33,620 nt of DNA, taken from positions 1 to 33,620 of the IMG/VR virus record IMGVR_UViG_3300042288_001092; one strand, written 5' to 3'. Both the position numbers and the translations under genes were made by a program. The DNA comes from a virus. The notes under the pieces were generated by a model. The model searched no databases, was not told the DNA's origin, and was given only the letters and a program-made list of their open reading frames with translations. Shown here in pieces: positions 2,002-15,083 of the stretch; position 1 is the first letter of the stretch; the number at the start of each line of letters is the position of its first letter.

Positions 2002-2819
2002 TAATTACGCCTCGTTATCGGCTCGTAACGCTGGTCGCAGGTTGATCGTGTCATTAATTCATTTGGCCCAGGTGGCGAATTGTTTACCCCAAATGTCACG
2101 CCAAAGAAAAGGATGCCGGTGACACCAACCTCCATAAATGAGAAGGTTGTCTGATCTTCGTAGTACAAAGTTGAACCGCTGGCCGCCGCTCCAAATATTG
2201 CTTGACTTACCAGCGTTCCGTTTGCATGTTTGTTTGTAGAAATAAGCTGCGCAGAAACAGGGCTCAGGTCGATCTCAGATTGACTTAGCCCTCTAGCTAC
2301 TGTCGTATCGAACGCACGAGATAAAAAGACGCTGCCAGCGGCTGGATAGCCGTAAGTCATGCCGATTGCGAATTGATATTCAGTGGTAGCAAGATTGTTT
2401 GTTTTACTGATGCCATAGATTGTGCGTTTATTAAGTGTTCCATTGCCACTTGCAAGCTGATAAACCTGCCCTGCTATCGTCGCGTTGCCGCTAACGATGT
2501 TGGCATTCAGCGGAAAATACAGCGAATTGCCGACCGACGAAACATCATTCGCCGTTAGCGTGACATTCCCCGTTCGATTATTGAACGTACTGACGCCGCC
2601 CGCTTGTGCCGACAACAGCCCATTGGCGTTGATCGTCAGGTTATCGCCAACGATGATGCCGCCAAGTGTGTTTGCGGTGGCAGGTGGCAGAACATAACTA
2701 TTGCCGGTCGTCTGTACGACAACCGTATTATTCGGCTGTTGTCGCACCAGCACCTGATTGCTTGATGCCTGAATCGTCAGGCTGGTGCTGTTCGCTTGTC
2801 TAACGATGATATCAGCCAT
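2001..2819 (-). CDS. Tail fibre-like protein
   Basis: 272 residues. It carries two well-known phage fibre motifs: TLGGIIVGDNLTINANGLLS near residues 52-71, and GVSTFNNRTGNVTLTANDV near 74-92, a form of the G..SFNGRTG.VTLT..DV motif. The C-terminus ends in a CDQRYEPITRRN segment resembling the D.RY.. close of fibre proteins. The N-terminus is Gln/Asn/Thr-rich beta-like sequence. It overlaps both neighbours, so the fibre genes form one coupled unit downstream of portal. Confidence 0.75.
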   Translation of the reverse strand: MADIIVRQANSTSLTIQASSNQVLVRQQPNNTVVVQTTGNSYVLPPATANTLGGIIVGDNLTINANGLLSAQAGGVSTFNNRTGNVTLTANDVSSVGNSLYFPLNANIVSGNATIAGQVYQLASGNGTLNKRTIYGISKTNNLATTEYQFAIGMTYGYPAAGSVFLSRAFDTTVARGLSQSEIDLSPVSAQLISTNKHANGTLVSQAIFGAAASGSTLYYEDQTTFSFMEVGVTGILFFGVTFGVNNSPPGPNELMTRSTCDQRYEPITRRN

Positions 2820-3169
2820 TAGCGCGTGACTTCCGGGGTGACTGTGAGCGTGCCATATAGCAGCCGATCAACCGTGGTGTCAGGCTTGACCAGTTCAAGA
2901 TCGTAAACATAACTGCCCGCTGTCAGATTAGCCGTTTGGGCGGCTGTCTGCTGCAAGGTAAAAGTCCCATTGGCGGCTGATGTGATCGTGATATTTCCGT
3001 TGGTGGTTGACAGGTCAAGTGTCGTATTAGCAGTGTATGCCGATCTGGCCTGCATACGGATTGTGTAGCCGGATAGGCTGATATTAGTGCCGTTAGCAGT
3101 TTGATATTGGATGGACTGCGACCAGGTGGCCCCTTGCTCGATTGTCAGATTGCAATTACCGGCAGGCAT
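2819..3169 (-). CDS. Small Ig-like/BppU N-terminal-type tail protein
   Basis: 116 residues. The order of elements (LTIEQGATWSQSI, then LSGYTIRMQAR, then GTFTLQQTAAQTANLTAG.YVYDLEL and a closing GTLTVTPEV) matches a common phage beta-sandwich family. That family includes the BppU-type N-terminal domain and many single-domain tail-associated proteins. Its stop overlaps the start of the next fibre gene and its start overlaps the stop of portal. It probably anchors or caps the fibre module; the family is recognised but the precise role is not. Confidence 0.7.
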   Translation of the reverse strand: MPAGNCNLTIEQGATWSQSIQYQTANGTNISLSGYTIRMQARSAYTANTTLDLSTTNGNITITSAANGTFTLQQTAAQTANLTAGSYVYDLELVKPDTTVDRLLYGTLTVTPEVTR

Positions 3170-4467
3170 TATTCAGCCTCACCTTCTGCAACATCTTCTG
3201 CCGCTTCGGCTGGCGTGTCTTCTGACTCGATTTCGGCATAGCCCATAATCTGCCGAGCCTCATTGAGCGACAACAGGCCGGATTGATACAAGGCCACGGC
3301 TCGATCTGACAAGGCTTTTGTGTCTGCTGCCAACTCTTCGATCTGGCTGGTGTCAAACCTGACTGTGAGCATGCTATCAGGCTGGGCAATTGCACCGTCA
3401 TAGCCGGTGGGAAGCGTTCGCACCAGCCTTGTAAGCTGCATTGCCAGCAGTTCCAAGAATGGAATAATCGCATCTCGCCAGCTTGCTCGGTTGGCTTCAA
3501 TCAGGTTGCTATATGTCTTACCGGTGTCGGGTTGTTTCAGTGACATTGGCGACCAGCCCAAGACACCACAGACACGAGCCACCGCGATTTCGGTCATCTC
3601 CTGAACTGATAAATCTTTCGGGCTGAATCCCGGCGTTTTGATGTCAAGCTCGCCGCCCTTGAAAATCAATGGCCTGCCGACGCCCTTACCAGACACCGCC
3701 CGCTTGATGTCAGACTGAAGTACCGCGATATTGTCAGATGTCATCATCTGCGCCCCCGTGCCGGTCAGACTGACCAGCCATGAAGGGACACCAGATCGGC
3801 TCAGGATGGTTGTTTCATAGATCGCCGTGAGCTTGATCAGTGCCAACTCTGCCCGCACTGCTTCCAGCGGTGAACGCCCCCTTGCGGCTGTTGTCGATGA
3901 CTTGCCGACCCGGAAGTGCAGCATTCGCTCGCGAGGTGTCGTGAACTGGAAGCCCCGCCCACCATCGAAGCCGACAAAGGGATATTCGATGATTTCGCCG
4001 ATGGCCTGCCCGTATGTCGGCACTTGCAGCCAACTGTAAGGGATGGGCTGAAGCTCGCGAATCGTGCCGCCCGTCTGGGTGTCTCTGTCAGAGATGGCGG
4101 GAACGTAGGCGTTGCCATCTTCCAGCAACTGCTGATAAATAAATTCAACCAGCGTGCTTTCAGTCTCACCTGGTGCGGGTTCTTTCCAGATTTGCAGCAG
4201 CGGATGATCTACCGGCTCAAATCCGCCTTCTTCATCAAAGTAGCCGACCTGCAATATGGCCTTGCAGACGTTCCGCCGCATGGCCTCAATCGCGGCCCTG
4301 ATGACAGGGTTATCGCAATAAGGCCGGGCAAGATTGGCGTAATCATCACTTAGAGCGTTAATGACATCAACTGACCATGCCGACACGTCGATCTCGGTGG
4401 TGTCAGCAGTAACGCCCGTGCGAAGTGCTTTCGAGCGGAACCAGTTGAGTGGGTTGTAGTCAGGCAT
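3169..4467 (-). CDS. Phage portal protein (HK97 family)
   Basis: 432 residues, the usual length for HK97-type portals. Recognisable features are the N-terminal NPLNWFR, a segment of the L.EFIYQQLLEDGNAYVPA type, the central helix region (SPLEAVRAELALIKLTAIYE), and the late conserved segment (KTYSNLIEANRASWRDAIIPFLELL) before a wing/clip C-terminus. The last ~25 residues are acidic. The portal forms the dodecameric DNA channel at one capsid vertex. It lies directly downstream of terminase and a methyltransferase, as in a packaging module, but about 28 kb by circular distance from the other head genes in this layout. Confidence 0.9.
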   Translation of the reverse strand: MPDYNPLNWFRSKALRTGVTADTTEIDVSAWSVDVINALSDDYANLARPYCDNPVIRAAIEAMRRNVCKAILQVGYFDEEGGFEPVDHPLLQIWKEPAPGETESTLVEFIYQQLLEDGNAYVPAISDRDTQTGGTIRELQPIPYSWLQVPTYGQAIGEIIEYPFVGFDGGRGFQFTTPRERMLHFRVGKSSTTAARGRSPLEAVRAELALIKLTAIYETTILSRSGVPSWLVSLTGTGAQMMTSDNIAVLQSDIKRAVSGKGVGRPLIFKGGELDIKTPGFSPKDLSVQEMTEIAVARVCGVLGWSPMSLKQPDTGKTYSNLIEANRASWRDAIIPFLELLAMQLTRLVRTLPTGYDGAIAQPDSMLTVRFDTSQIEELAADTKALSDRAVALYQSGLLSLNEARQIMGYAEIESEDTPAEAAEDVAEGEAE

Positions 4468-11630: not shown

Positions 11631-11860
11631 GCTTCCACCCCTTTCGGGTGAATGCTTTTGGCTTCTTTGATCAGATAGATGCGGTCGAAGTCGGCAGGTT
11701 TGATCGTGAAATAAGCGTTGTTGCGGAAAAGCACGTCGATGGCGGCGATGTCAAACGCTTTGCCTTTGGCGTCACGTTTATATTCAATTTTCACAACCGT
11801 GCCGACCATGATTGATTCTTTGGCCCGAATTGTGTCGCCCACCTGATAACGATTGATCAT
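11627..11860 (-). CDS. Hypothetical small beta protein
   Basis: 77 residues (MINRYQVGDTIRAKESIMVG...). The pattern of short strands (VGDTIRAKESIMVGTVVKIEY, then IDVLFRNNAYFTIKP) suggests a small beta-barrel, as in the KOW/SH3-like folds, but no family is certain. Its start overlaps the csrA stop (ATGA), so the two are translated together. Confidence 0.5.
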   Translation of the reverse strand: MINRYQVGDTIRAKESIMVGTVVKIEYKRDAKGKAFDIAAIDVLFRNNAYFTIKPADFDRIYLIKEAKSIHPKGVEA

Positions 11861-12057
11861 GACACGCCATCCTTTTTTGCACTGTTGAGCTTCTTTTCCC
11901 TGATTTCTGGCCGATTGATCTGTACGTTCTTTGAGGCACTGAAGGCCAGTTTGACCTTGTCGCCACGAATCTCGGCGACGATGACTTCGATTGTTTCGTC
12001 ACCCGCATCGATGACAACTGTTTGAAGTTTGCCCCTTGTCAATACCAAGACACCCAT
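11857..12057 (-). CDS. csrA: CsrA/RsmA-family RNA-binding protein, phage-encoded
   Basis: 66 residues from ATG at 12057, with a perfect GGAGG Shine-Dalgarno. The family pattern is clear: LVLTR at residues 4-8, then ETIEVIVAEIRGDKVKLAF and SASKNVQINRPEI at residues 40-52. Arg49 corresponds to the RNA-contacting Arg44 of E. coli CsrA. CsrA proteins are dimers that bind GGA in hairpin loops and leaders and alter translation or mRNA stability. Its own Shine-Dalgarno reads ATGGAGG, which fits an autoregulatory site. The leader holds a hairpin and, further up, a 23-unit GGYNN array. It may act on host or phage mRNAs; neither is shown. Confidence 0.85.
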   Translation of the reverse strand: MGVLVLTRGKLQTVVIDAGDETIEVIVAEIRGDKVKLAFSASKNVQINRPEIREKKLNSAKKDGVS

Positions 12058-12079
12058 CGTTGCAACCTCCATGATGATT

Positions 12080-12098
12080 GACGGCCAGGCTGACCGTC
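12080..12098 (-). promoter_or_regulatory. Hairpin in csrA leader
   Basis: An inverted repeat (GACGG at 12080-12084 and CCGTC at 12094-12098), extendable to eight pairs with one mismatch, lies about a dozen bases before the csrA Shine-Dalgarno. A hairpin next to a GGA-containing ribosome-binding site is the usual setting for CsrA-type control. Its role here is inferred. Confidence 0.4.
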
Positions 12099-12192
12099 CG
12101 TGAGTTCCATGCCTGCCGCCTGAAAGTTCAGCCTGATAACATCTCAGGCATCCTTCCACCGCCCCGGCGTCGGACTGTGACGACCGAGGAAA

Positions 12193-12227
12193 CCACCGCC
12201 AGCCATCATTTCAGACTGGCAGGAGTG
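12193..12227 (-). repeat. Conserved-loop hairpin, copy 1 of 4 (35-bp exact repeat)
   Basis: This 35-bp stretch is identical to 13805-13839. It forms a five-pair stem (12198-12202 with 12216-12220) closing a 13-base loop that reads TCTGAAATGATGG on the minus strand. The same loop pattern (TCTGAAA...GG) recurs in two other hairpins with different stems. It ends the 23-unit pentamer array upstream of csrA. Confidence 0.75.
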
Positions 12228-12339
12228 CCTTGCCTTACCTTACCGCACCGGGCCGCACCCGACCTGACCGTGGCCGGACGCACCATGCCATGCCTATCCT
12301 TACCTCACCGTGCCAGACCACGCCATGACTCGCCAAGCC
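12225..12339 (-). repeat. GGYNN pentamer array (23 units) upstream of csrA
   Basis: On the minus strand the sequence can be cut into 23 consecutive 5-base units, nearly all GGC.. or GGT.. (for example GGCAT, GGTGC, GGTAA, GGCAA). Exceptions are few (GTCAT, GTCCG, GCCAC, GGATA). The phase never slips across 115 bases. It fills most of the 290-base gap 12058-12347 between a hypothetical gene and csrA. No open frame is supported here, and a 5-base period is not a coding signal. Confidence 0.8.
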
Positions 12340-12347
12340 TTGATTTA

Positions 12348-12845
12348 TCATCCACCGGGACGCCTAAAGAAAGCGGGTGGCTTCATTACTGGCGGCGGTG
12401 CAACTCTTTCTGACTGAGTTGGCCGCGTCGCCTTGTTTACATCACGGAGCGACCGTTGCAGAGAATCAAGCGACACACTGATCTTGCGTGACTCAATCTC
12501 ATGCCGCCGCTTGTCAATCTCGCCAAGCTCTGAAACGTCAACACGCTCCACATGCTTTTTGCTTCGGCGAATCTTTTTTACACCTGTGCGGAATCGTTTG
12601 GCTTGAAACTCAACCGATTCAGCGTCTGACAGAATATAAACCGAACCGTTGGCAACTCGCAGGCTCCAATGTTTGCCATTCTTCCAGAGAACTTTCTCGA
12701 GCAGGCCAGCCACTTTCAAGGCGGCAAAATTGATTGAATCTTGATCGGTTTCAATGATTCCAGCAAGTTTCACGACATCGCTTGGCGGTATGCAATCGCC
12801 TTTAGAAAGCCCATCAATAAAATCTTGCTCAAAATAGATTTTCAT
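12348..12845 (-). CDS. Hypothetical protein
   Basis: 165 residues. The N-terminal ~75 residues include a helix-turn-helix-like stretch (IPPSDVVKLAGIIETDQ..., then NFAALKVAGLLEKVLW) and a Trp-rich strand. The C-terminal half is basic and helical (RFRTGVKKIRRSKKH) and ends in a Pro-rich tail (APPPVMKPPAFFRRPGG). Start at 12845 overlaps the upstream stop as ATGA. No family recognised; nucleic-acid binding is possible. Confidence 0.55.
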   Translation of the reverse strand: MKIYFEQDFIDGLSKGDCIPPSDVVKLAGIIETDQDSINFAALKVAGLLEKVLWKNGKHWSLRVANGSVYILSDAESVEFQAKRFRTGVKKIRRSKKHVERVDVSELGEIDKRRHEIESRKISVSLDSLQRSLRDVNKATRPTQSERVAPPPVMKPPAFFRRPGG

Positions 12846-13435
12846 GAAAGCACCTCAAAGCTCGACACTTCAAATAATCCGAAACGCGGACGGTAATCAC
12901 AGAGCCCGATTGACCTGCCTGCAATCTGGCAGATTTGAGCAAATACGCTGGCGTCAAGGTCGTAAAGGTCAGCTTGAAATTCAGCCGCCCAAATGTCAAA
13001 ACGTGGTCTATAGCGAATGACTCGCGATGTTTGAACACGCACACCACGGGCATCAATGTATTTGCCGCCAGTTTTCCAAAAGTCCTCAACTGTTGCTTTG
13101 GGCCCTGCTGGGTGATCGTGAACCAGTAGCGTGTCGTCAGTGACGATAATGCCAGATTGTGCGGTTTTCTTTAGTTTCAGCTTCTTTGCCGCTTCAATGA
13201 AACAACCTTGCAGGCAATCGGCTGTAATAACAGGCCGAAATTCTGAATCATGATAGAAGCCGTTTCGCCAGTCAAGCTCTGCCAGCCGTTCATGGTCTGA
13301 ATCGACCTTTGACCGCTTGGAGCTGATCGCCTTTGATGCTTTTGCCTCCTTACTCAACGGGTTTGCTGCCCGTGCCGAGTGCATCAATAACGGCCTCACC
13401 CCTGAAATCTTGACTCTTACAGATATGTCTGACAT
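12842..13435 (-). CDS. Conserved phage protein of unknown function
   Basis: 197 residues, preceded by an AAGGA Shine-Dalgarno. It begins VRVKISGVRPLLMHS and continues with KAISSKRSKVDSDHE, GFYHDSEFRPVITADCLQGC and a C-terminal IAGRSIGLCDYRPRFGLFEV. I recognise this arrangement from a widespread phage protein family, usually unannotated, found in early operons of actinobacterial and other phages. The strand-rich, Gly-containing layout recalls single-RRM RNA-binding folds, but that is only an impression. It follows the large non-coding pentamer locus. Confidence 0.65.
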   Translation of the reverse strand: MSDISVRVKISGVRPLLMHSARAANPLSKEAKASKAISSKRSKVDSDHERLAELDWRNGFYHDSEFRPVITADCLQGCFIEAAKKLKLKKTAQSGIIVTDDTLLVHDHPAGPKATVEDFWKTGGKYIDARGVRVQTSRVIRYRPRFDIWAAEFQADLYDLDASVFAQICQIAGRSIGLCDYRPRFGLFEVSSFEVLS

Positions 13436-13516
13436 TCACTCAATCCTTATTGTCGGCTTCCCATGCTTAGAGATCGCCGAGTTCTGAAAATGCCCGGCAG
13501 CAACATTTGCCACCGG

Positions 13517-13591
13517 AGCCCTTGCCTAGCCCGACCTTACCCAGCCACACCGGGCCTTGCCCGACCGGAACATGCCCAGCCCAACCGGACA
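13517..13591 (-). repeat. GGYNN pentamer array (15 units)
   Basis: Fifteen in-phase 5-base units on the minus strand, mostly GGC.. or GGT.., with two imperfect ones (GTTCC, TGTCC). It follows the third hairpin of the locus and ends about 80 bases before the start of the next gene, leaving a short leader. Part of the 741-base gene-free stretch 13436-14176. Confidence 0.75.
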
Positions 13592-13593
13592 AT

Positions 13594-13626
13594 CCACCGC
13601 TGACCGTAATTTCAGATCAACGGTGG
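13594..13626 (-). repeat. Conserved-loop hairpin, copy 2 of 4
   Basis: Stem of six pairs (13594-13599 with 13621-13626), one mismatch, then three more pairs, closing a 13-base loop that reads TCTGAAATTACGG on the minus strand. The stem sequence is unrelated to the other copies, while the loop is nearly the same. It separates two pentamer arrays. Confidence 0.7.
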
Positions 13627-13700
13627 CACCTTGCCTCGCCGAACCTTGCCATACACTGCCATACACTGCTATGCCATACACTGCCTGACCTCGCCTAACC
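13626..13700 (-). repeat. GGYNN pentamer array (15 units)
   Basis: Fifteen in-phase 5-base units between two hairpins on the minus strand. Several units deviate (TGTAT three times, AGCAG once), and a 10-base subunit (GGCAG TGTAT) repeats, showing local duplication by whole units. The phase stays constant. Confidence 0.75.
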
Positions 13701-13708
13701 GGGGTAAT

Positions 13709-13742
13709 CCGCTTGCAGCCAATCGTTTCAGACTGCAAGCGG
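13709..13742 (-). repeat. Conserved-loop hairpin, copy 3 of 4 (10-bp perfect stem)
   Basis: A perfect ten-pair stem (13709-13718 with 13733-13742) with a 14-base loop reading TCTGAAACGATTGG on the minus strand. This is the strongest of the four hairpins. Pentamer arrays abut it on both sides. The loop, not the stem, is what it shares with the others. Confidence 0.8.
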
Positions 13743-13801
13743 CACCATGCCGAGCCTAACCAGACCGTGCCACGCCGGGCCATGACCTGCCCCGCCTTGG
13801 C
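13742..13801 (-). repeat. GGYNN pentamer array (12 units)
   Basis: Twelve in-phase units on the minus strand: ten start GGC or GGT, the others are GTCAT and GCCAA. It begins right after hairpin copy 4 and ends at hairpin copy 3. Confidence 0.8.
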
Positions 13802-13804
13802 AAT

Positions 13805-13839
13805 CCACCGCCAGCCATCATTTCAGACTGGCAGGAGTG
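13805..13839 (-). repeat. Conserved-loop hairpin, copy 4 of 4 (35-bp exact repeat)
   Basis: Identical over 35 bases to 12193-12227. Stem 13810-13814 with 13828-13832, loop TCTGAAATGATGG on the minus strand. It opens the array locus in transcription order. The exact match over 35 bases, with diverged flanks, suggests recent duplication or conservation of this unit. Confidence 0.75.
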
Positions 13840-13940
13840 AAAACCCGCCCAAGCAACGCACCTGGGCGAGTCGCAGAAGTTTCCCGCCGTTTTGGACCAG
13901 CGGCCAGCCAGAACGAAAATCGATTAACTTTCTGACTGAT

Positions 13941-14382: not shown

Positions 14383-15000
14383 TCAGAATGGTGCATCTTC
14401 AGCCGTTGGGTCGATCTTATGGCCAGCGGGGGCCGCTGCCCGGTATTCCTTGACCGTGGTTGACTGCCCTGTCAGTTCGTGGCACTGTGCAGCCTGTTTG
14501 ATGATCCACTCAGGTACACCGTCACGGGGTGGGTCGTCATACGACCAGGCAAAGATGTCGCAGTTTGGGTCAAATGGCGCCATGCCTCTCGGCAGTCGGC
14601 CAAGGCTGGCGACATTTGCATAGGTTTTGTCGCCTTTAGCCGTGTGTGTGATTGTGACCATGACCCGCAAGTTCAGCAGCGTTTCAGGGTCAAGCGTTCC
14701 ACCTTCCGGCGGCCAGCCGCTGCCCAGAACGGGCTTAAACAGTTTCGTCAGGCCAGCTTTCTCGCCCAGGCTAAAGCCGACTGTGGTTGTGATCGAGAAA
14801 AACTTGTCTGATTGCTCGCCTAATGGCTCATCCAGAATGAATCTGATGGCCAGCTTCTGCGATGGTTTGTAACTTGGGTTCAACGGCGTTTGAGTGCCGA
14901 GAAAGAAAAGATTCTGAACGATACCTTGATAGGTGCCTTCTGGCACCGGGGTATAGTCGCCAGATCCGGCTGGATTGCTCTTTAACATCGGAATAGGCAT
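14383..15000 (-). CDS. Putative phage ssDNA-binding / DUF669-like protein
   Basis: 205 residues from ATG at 15000 with an AAAGG Shine-Dalgarno. The layout (GDYTPVPEGTYQGIVQNL, then SYKPSQKLAIRFIL, then TTVGFSLGEKAGLTKLFKPVLG, and a following VTITHTAKGDKTYANVASL) matches phage DUF669-like proteins. Several of these bind single-stranded DNA in replication modules. The C-terminal tail is acidic (DPTAEDAPF), as is usual for ssDNA-binding proteins. It lies downstream of the PrimPol-helicase. The family assignment is moderately sure; the biochemical role is inferred. Confidence 0.65.
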   Translation of the reverse strand: MPIPMLKSNPAGSGDYTPVPEGTYQGIVQNLFFLGTQTPLNPSYKPSQKLAIRFILDEPLGEQSDKFFSITTTVGFSLGEKAGLTKLFKPVLGSGWPPEGGTLDPETLLNLRVMVTITHTAKGDKTYANVASLGRLPRGMAPFDPNCDIFAWSYDDPPRDGVPEWIIKQAAQCHELTGQSTTVKEYRAAAPAGHKIDPTAEDAPF

Positions 15001-15083
15001 GTTTATTGACCTTTCTGGTCGGATTGCCTGACAAGAGAAATTGCCACCGGGCAACGTGCCCGGCAGCATCAACAAGGAGCAAC

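Follow-up and report, generated by a model that had tools for sequence, protein, structure and literature searches.

GGYNN arrays of a temperate phage assigned to a probable VIPR locus that has a distinct tail family and an apparent array fusion

The GGYNN arrays examined in this study, together with the genes beside them, very probably (about 95%) form a VIPR locus of a temperate phage, and they thus belong to a class that has already been named. VIPR was described in a 2026 preprint (PMC13142463; bioRxiv 2026.04.26.720920 v2). Vipr is a small phage RAMP protein of ~20 kD that has an RRM-type fold with a glycine-rich loop and a thumb, and its guide RNAs (vrRNAs) consist of 9–16 GGY/NN repeats with hypervariable NN, followed by a structured 3' tail (PMC13142463). 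The NN pairs read double-stranded DNA with one base skipped, and competing phages and prophages are silenced (PMC13142463). VIPR loci occur mostly in phages or prophages, usually have vipr and a vap gene as their minimal content, and fall into seven types (PMC13142463). The preliminary description of our locus had placed it in no known class; it fits the vrRNA class of that work (PMC13142463). As a member of VIPR, the locus has a tail family of its own and an unusual array that looks fused.

VIPR is a major recent discovery, providing RNA-guided DNA recognition with a gapped code, and it has been proposed to be older than CRISPR. Our locus adds to it modestly, mainly through the comparison with a sibling phage. 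It also serves as an independent check, in which the repeat alone leads to the same protein family in uncultivated viruses.

The window, which is the whole 33.6-kb viral record analysed here, contains all parts of the locus on its minus strand, and the proposed layout is T1-[guide A]-T2-[guide B]-T3-[guide C]-hairpin-vipr-vap-[guide D]-T4. The RNA is most likely read from the minus strand, with the GGY core kept through contacts with protein subunits, and the earlier proposal that the repeated core is a protein-contact site on a minus-strand RNA is most likely right. Processed at the hairpins, or bounded by them, the array transcripts would yield vrRNAs, each with a guide tract of GGYNN units and a hairpin as its 3' tail. 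Vipr subunits would be arranged in a row on the tract, one per GGY, leaving the NN pairs to base-pair with double-stranded DNA in the pattern NNxNNxNN, which skips one base. Once bound, the complex would silence a gene of a competitor, be it a phage, a satellite, or a prophage. For this locus, we infer expression, RNP formation, DNA recognition, and silencing from the published system (PMC13142463).

Arrays, hairpins, and genes of the locus

The identity at lag 5 (positions 13501–13840) was 0.382, compared with 0.277 ± 0.024 in dinucleotide-preserving shuffles (z 4.5), and none of the 2000 shuffles reached the observed value. Identities at lags 10, 15, and 20 in the region of arrays A–C were also elevated (~0.42), and the longest perfect GGYNN runs had 9 and 8 units, whereas no run in 1000 shuffles exceeded 5. 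An excess at lag 5 over shuffles had been set beforehand as the test of the repeat, and its presence, together with perfect runs beyond those of the shuffles, bears out the unbroken 5-base phase first noticed on the minus strand. It was also fair to say that nearly every unit starts with GGC or GGT, though exceptions such as GTC, TGT, AGC, and GTT occur among the cores of arrays A, B, and C. The NN pairs of array A are, in order, AA GG AG AT CC GT AC CT TA TC AT GC. The last two bases of the units do vary while GGY holds, but they are not "free" as had been written, since it is by these NN pairs that a VIPR system specifies its DNA target.

The features of the locus are listed in Table 1. The first count of 12, 15, and 15 units agrees with our parsing for arrays A and C, but array B has 16. 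The three arrays described initially are all present, and a fourth one with the same hairpin after it (array D) had been missed. Array D exceeds the published range of 9–16 units, whereas arrays A, B, and C (12, 16, and ~15 units) lie within it. An Rfam search of the locus gave no match. An open reading frame over the arrays (13526–13783) was rejected as coding and considered a by-product of the repeat; arrays elsewhere likewise give spurious peptides of the ARxGxARxG type.

Table 1 Features of the putative VIPR locus, in the order of the minus strand.
Feature	Coordinates	Strand	Remarks
Strong hairpin followed by GGGUUUU	13840..13872	-	fold -21.0 kcal/mol, z -4.3; just upstream of the arrays
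Hairpin T1, tail family	13805..13836	-	upstream of array A; R1 56.7 bits; loop UCUGAAA
Putative vrRNA guide array A	13742..13801	-	12 units, parsed by hand
Hairpin T2, putative 3' tail of vrRNA A	13709..13742	-	-24.6 kcal/mol, z -4.65; covariation; R1 65.6 bits
Putative vrRNA guide array B	13626..13705	-	16 units, parsed by hand
Hairpin T3, putative 3' tail of vrRNA B	13594..13626	-	fold; covariation; R1 68.2 bits
Putative vrRNA guide array C	13518..13590	-	~15 units, counting an imperfect first unit
Last hairpin, putative tail of array C	13492..13518	-	GGCAAGGGCU-CCGGUGGCAA AUG UUGCUGCCGG; -18.1 kcal/mol, z -1.95
vipr	12842..13435	-	197-aa RAMP protein; between arrays C and D
Putative vap	12348..12845	-	165 aa; start overlaps the vipr stop by 4 bases
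Putative vrRNA guide array D	12225..12344	-	24 units in a single phase, then tail hairpin T4
Hairpin T4, putative 3' tail of vrRNA D	12193..12224	-	fold; R1 62.0 bits

A 12-bp stem and an invariant UCUGAAA loop are common to four hairpins: the one before array A and those after A, B, and D. The hairpins between the arrays had been reported correctly, as judged from fold z values of -4.65 and -3.75 for two of them and from covariation across copies, but their common loop had been overlooked. Nine copies of the tail from the window and the sibling phage (L021) were compared; with paralogues included among them, so that the counts do not represent independent events, 98.1% of the stem cells were paired and 7 of the 12 pairs had changed on both sides. 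The covariation was not equalled in any of 500 shuffles, and slid structures paired at most 54.5%. A covariance model of the tail (R1) found nothing convincing beyond the window and L021, and other VIPR phages evidently use other tails. Because the UCUGAAA tail flanks arrays on both sides and was unseen outside the sibling, vrRNA processing here could differ from that in Escherichia phage SUSP1. The hairpin that follows array C differs from the T1–T4 family and is retained in L021. The strong hairpin just upstream of the arrays is a possible terminator of upstream transcription; a consensus terminator scan did not flag it.

The protein encoded between arrays C and D matched the SUSP1 Vipr chain (PDB 36pp_D) with an E-value of 1.7e-25 as a single sequence and 1.5e-51 as a profile of 38 homologues, the comparison being made against this chain, not the SUSP1 genome record. 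The SUSP1 gene ALH47003, which had been guessed to encode Vipr, does not. The protein of the window falls in phrog_4652, and a C-terminal motif, AGxxxGxGDxRPxFGRF, is conserved across the Vipr family. Its predicted structure (AlphaFold2, pLDDT 95.3) had Cmr/Csm RAMPs of the Csm3/Cas7 type as the top fold matches in the PDB, with Z up to 11.9, a value reached by the match to Csm3 over 158 residues at ~12% sequence identity. On the combined sequence and model comparisons, the gene is a vipr, and its product a putative vrRNA-binding effector. No other cas genes or CRISPR array were found near the locus.

The next gene has homologues beside vipr at six other array loci, and this recurrence and its overlap with vipr make it a likely vap. 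The putative Vap had no match in Pfam, NCBIfam, PADLOC, or PHROG. Its structural model had a pLDDT of 80, with the N-terminal part predicted as helix-helix-helix-hairpin, and a fold search against the PDB with an E cut-off of 0.001 found nothing. Winged-helix regulators (1ku9, E 0.69) showed a weak resemblance, which is not regarded as evidence. Directly downstream of array D lies a CsrA homologue (11857–12159, minus strand; PF02599, E 1.9e-11), whose position beside a guide array may be a coincidence or may reflect a regulator of the locus.

Elsewhere in the window are genes for terminase, portal, capsid, prohead protease, integrase, an AEP-type primase, and RusA, a gene content from which the record is taken to be all, or much, of a temperate tailed phage. 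A gene at 14383–15075 (minus strand) weakly resembles an NGO0469-type phage replication initiation protein (E 1.6e-19; 70.1 bits, with a cut-off of 75). The source had been taken for a planctomycete phage, which is not upheld by the terminase: its identity was 36–39% in 2 of 392 genomes of the planctomycete phylum (E ≤ 1e-60), lower than the 44–45% in 2 of 289 genomes of a class taken as Alphaproteobacteria and the 44.7% with an Acetobacter phage. The terminase searches in the three genome groups gave no close match.

Guide turnover in a sibling phage and the search for targets

The Vipr proteins of L021 and the window are 100% identical, and their DNA is 93% identical over 12281–13842. The L021 arrays at the positions of B and C are unrelated to arrays B and C of the window. 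Array A and its L021 counterpart A' differ in 5 of 26 NN bases and in 1 of 26 GG bases. After vap, L021 has two arrays, D and E, with a hairpin between them. In the window, array D shares its first 12 NN pairs with L021 array D; its second half, located where L021 has array E, runs on in phase and ends in tail T4. Judging from this alignment, array D of the window looks like two neighbouring guides fused in phase, with the intervening hairpin lost. The simplest reading, for which we infer the direction of change, would be a loss of the hairpin via recombination between units.

We tentatively suggest, at less than even odds, that the two phages have caught guide turnover in progress, with an identical Vipr, arrays B and C replaced, array A drifted mainly at NN, and array D fused. 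If this were general, VIPR phages would renew their guides by recombination of repeat units, without adaptation machinery. If true, fused guides of more than 16 units could function, for example by reading two targets. The sibling phages are a natural pair for asking how guides change without adaptation genes.

Competing phages and prophages would be the expected targets, by analogy with the published system (PMC13142463). Seven one-skip patterns of 8–9 units, representing guides A, B, C, D1, and D2 and the L021 guides B' and E, were scanned against IMG/VR, where each matched 0 to 27 stretches and none was above chance. Among the one-skip matches of D1, 49 of 202 flank bases agreed, compared with 50.5 expected. 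For guide A, the matches formed a G(R/S)IPV(T/I)(L/V)Y set attributable to chance, and their flanks agreed at the chance level. Four matches of B' with a flank p of 0.01 were set aside: 17 matches had been tested, and the four look like copies of one gene. Local searches that tolerated mismatches exceeded their shuffles once in ~40 tests. Within the window itself, guide A scored 17/22, where the highest of 100 shuffles scored 16; as one of ~40 tests, this is not claimed as a target. An all-against-all comparison of guides over the array phages showed no excess at any skip length.

The null result of these searches would fit a decayed VIPR locus, in which the guides are relics without a current target, and so would the imperfect cores and internal 10-base repeats of array B and the hairpin lost from array D. 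However, Vipr is intact, its protein sequence fully conserved between the siblings despite the 93% nucleotide identity; the NN bases changed more than the GG bases; and even array D, despite its apparent fusion, keeps its phase. The IMG/VR scans required exact matches, and such scans miss targets with mismatches as well as unsampled competitors. Decay is considered improbable.

GGYNN arrays and Vipr across viruses

A scan of IMG/VR for eight perfect units recovered at least 120 stretches. Most array stretches among the matches listed carry multiple arrays, which lie on a single strand and have diverse NN, and the repeat number per array ranges from 8 to more than 30 across loci. In the examples inspected, the arrays are intergenic and often end just before a ribosome-binding site; what divides them into segments is either a four-base slip of phase (GGCAGGC) or the presence of spacers and hairpins. 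Using an iterated profile, we detected Vipr in 89 of 117 GGYNN-array loci among the IMG/VR matches listed and in none of 81 other viral loci, which had been fetched for unrelated patterns. The median distance from array to vipr was 26 bp, and 325 arrays were oriented with vipr and 9 against it (array loci among the matches listed). Over 390 arrays, the entropies of the G, G, and Y positions were 0.22, 0.28, and 0.92 bits, values partly set by selection because the loci were chosen by eight perfect units, while those of the two N positions were 1.92 and 2.00 bits. The NN entropy and the association with Vipr are not produced by the eight-unit selection. Since the link between arrays and Vipr was reached from the DNA repeat alone, it supports the published class independently (PMC13142463).

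Conservation in relatives, as anticipated in the preliminary description, holds for the array class, which occurs in more than 100 viral stretches; the hairpin sequence was found only in the sibling phage. A DNA search of the phage collection gave no near relatives of the window. At 28 array loci (e.g., L019, L068, and L072), Vipr was undetected within the sequenced stretch; some of these stretches are truncated, and others may involve a diverged Vipr or guides in trans. Huge GGYNN tracts of 233, 130, and 136 units were observed in L077, L029, and L126, respectively, each being one viral stretch. In L126, there are ~10 separate arrays, and at the end of most of them stands GGTAGGGTAGGG, or a sequence very similar to it, together with a run rich in T. 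The scan had few false positives; among them, L044 (1119–1157) is a plain microsatellite that matched on both strands with a single NN type. In bacterial genomes, Vipr was found at 4 of 120 pattern loci, and the other matches were mostly GC-rich chance occurrences or microsatellites. The bacterial loci L191, L228, L169, and L216 combine a GGYNN-type match with a Vipr homologue (E 1e-23 to 1e-45) and are probably prophages or chromosomal VIPR.

As explanations of the repeat, the preliminary description had offered binding by a TRAP ring, an RNA that sequesters a protein, a DNA array spaced at half-turns, and Rho loading. None of these is supported, and the partner encoded next door is a Cas7-like RAMP. 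TRAP sites comprise ~11–12 units at 5-nt spacing, and the TRAP 11-mer reads (G/U)AG; CsrA reads GGA, and the CsrB/CsrC RNAs carry repeated GGA, typically as ANGGA in hairpin loops. Many array segments have ~11–12 units at the spacing of TRAP sites, the repeats alternate with hairpins, and the csrA homologue is a neighbour, so a protein-sequestering or attenuating RNA of the TRAP-ring or CsrA type had to be weighed. It is very unlikely, however: the repeated triplet is GGY, with 45 GGY, 3 GGA, and no ANGGA in the A–C region, and the hairpin loop is UCUGAAA. In addition, the repeat number is not fixed at 11 across loci, and the gene that accompanies the arrays across phages is vipr. A DNA-level array (half-turn protein array, iteron, partition site, or Rho-loading region) would suit a five-base phase of half a helical turn and a C-rich plus strand, but we give it almost no credence, as 325 of 334 arrays among the matches listed are co-oriented with vipr, an arrangement unnecessary for a DNA site. 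Further, the covariation of the hairpins is that of an RNA, 4-nt phase slips or spacers mark off the array segments, and the partner is a RAMP, an RNA-binding fold.

Comparison with known systems

The VIPR locus of the window resembles that of SUSP1 in having a homologous Vipr and GGY/NN vrRNAs with a structured 3' tail, and in being phage-borne. In both, several vrRNAs flank a two-gene operon on both sides, with three guides before and one after the operon in the window, and one before and three after in SUSP1. The window differs from SUSP1 in its tail with the UCUGAAA loop, in having one array of 24 units, in a putative Vap without detected similarity to a named protein, and in being a fragment of a temperate phage.

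At a VIPR-like locus of Pseudomonas phage LESphi2 (OQ594955), the Vipr, P21_9, is 36% identical to that of the window over the full length. LESphi2 likewise has a small overlapping gene downstream (P21_8); its GGYNN arrays immediately precede vipr and share the strand of that gene, and the LESphi2 vrRNAs enter their tails through GGC-NA-GGGCUG, as does array C of the window. However, P21_8 is not detectably related to the putative Vap, and the tail sequences differ. In LESphi2, a phage of a P. aeruginosa epidemic strain, the arrays, P21_9, and P21_8 occupy 2087–3567, a region annotated as hypothetical only.

Compared to the RAMP backbone of class 1 CRISPR systems (Csm3/Cas7), the likeness lies in the fold and in a protein filament on a guide RNA. 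The spacers of class 1 crRNAs are contiguous, whereas VIPR uses the gapped GGY/NN code.
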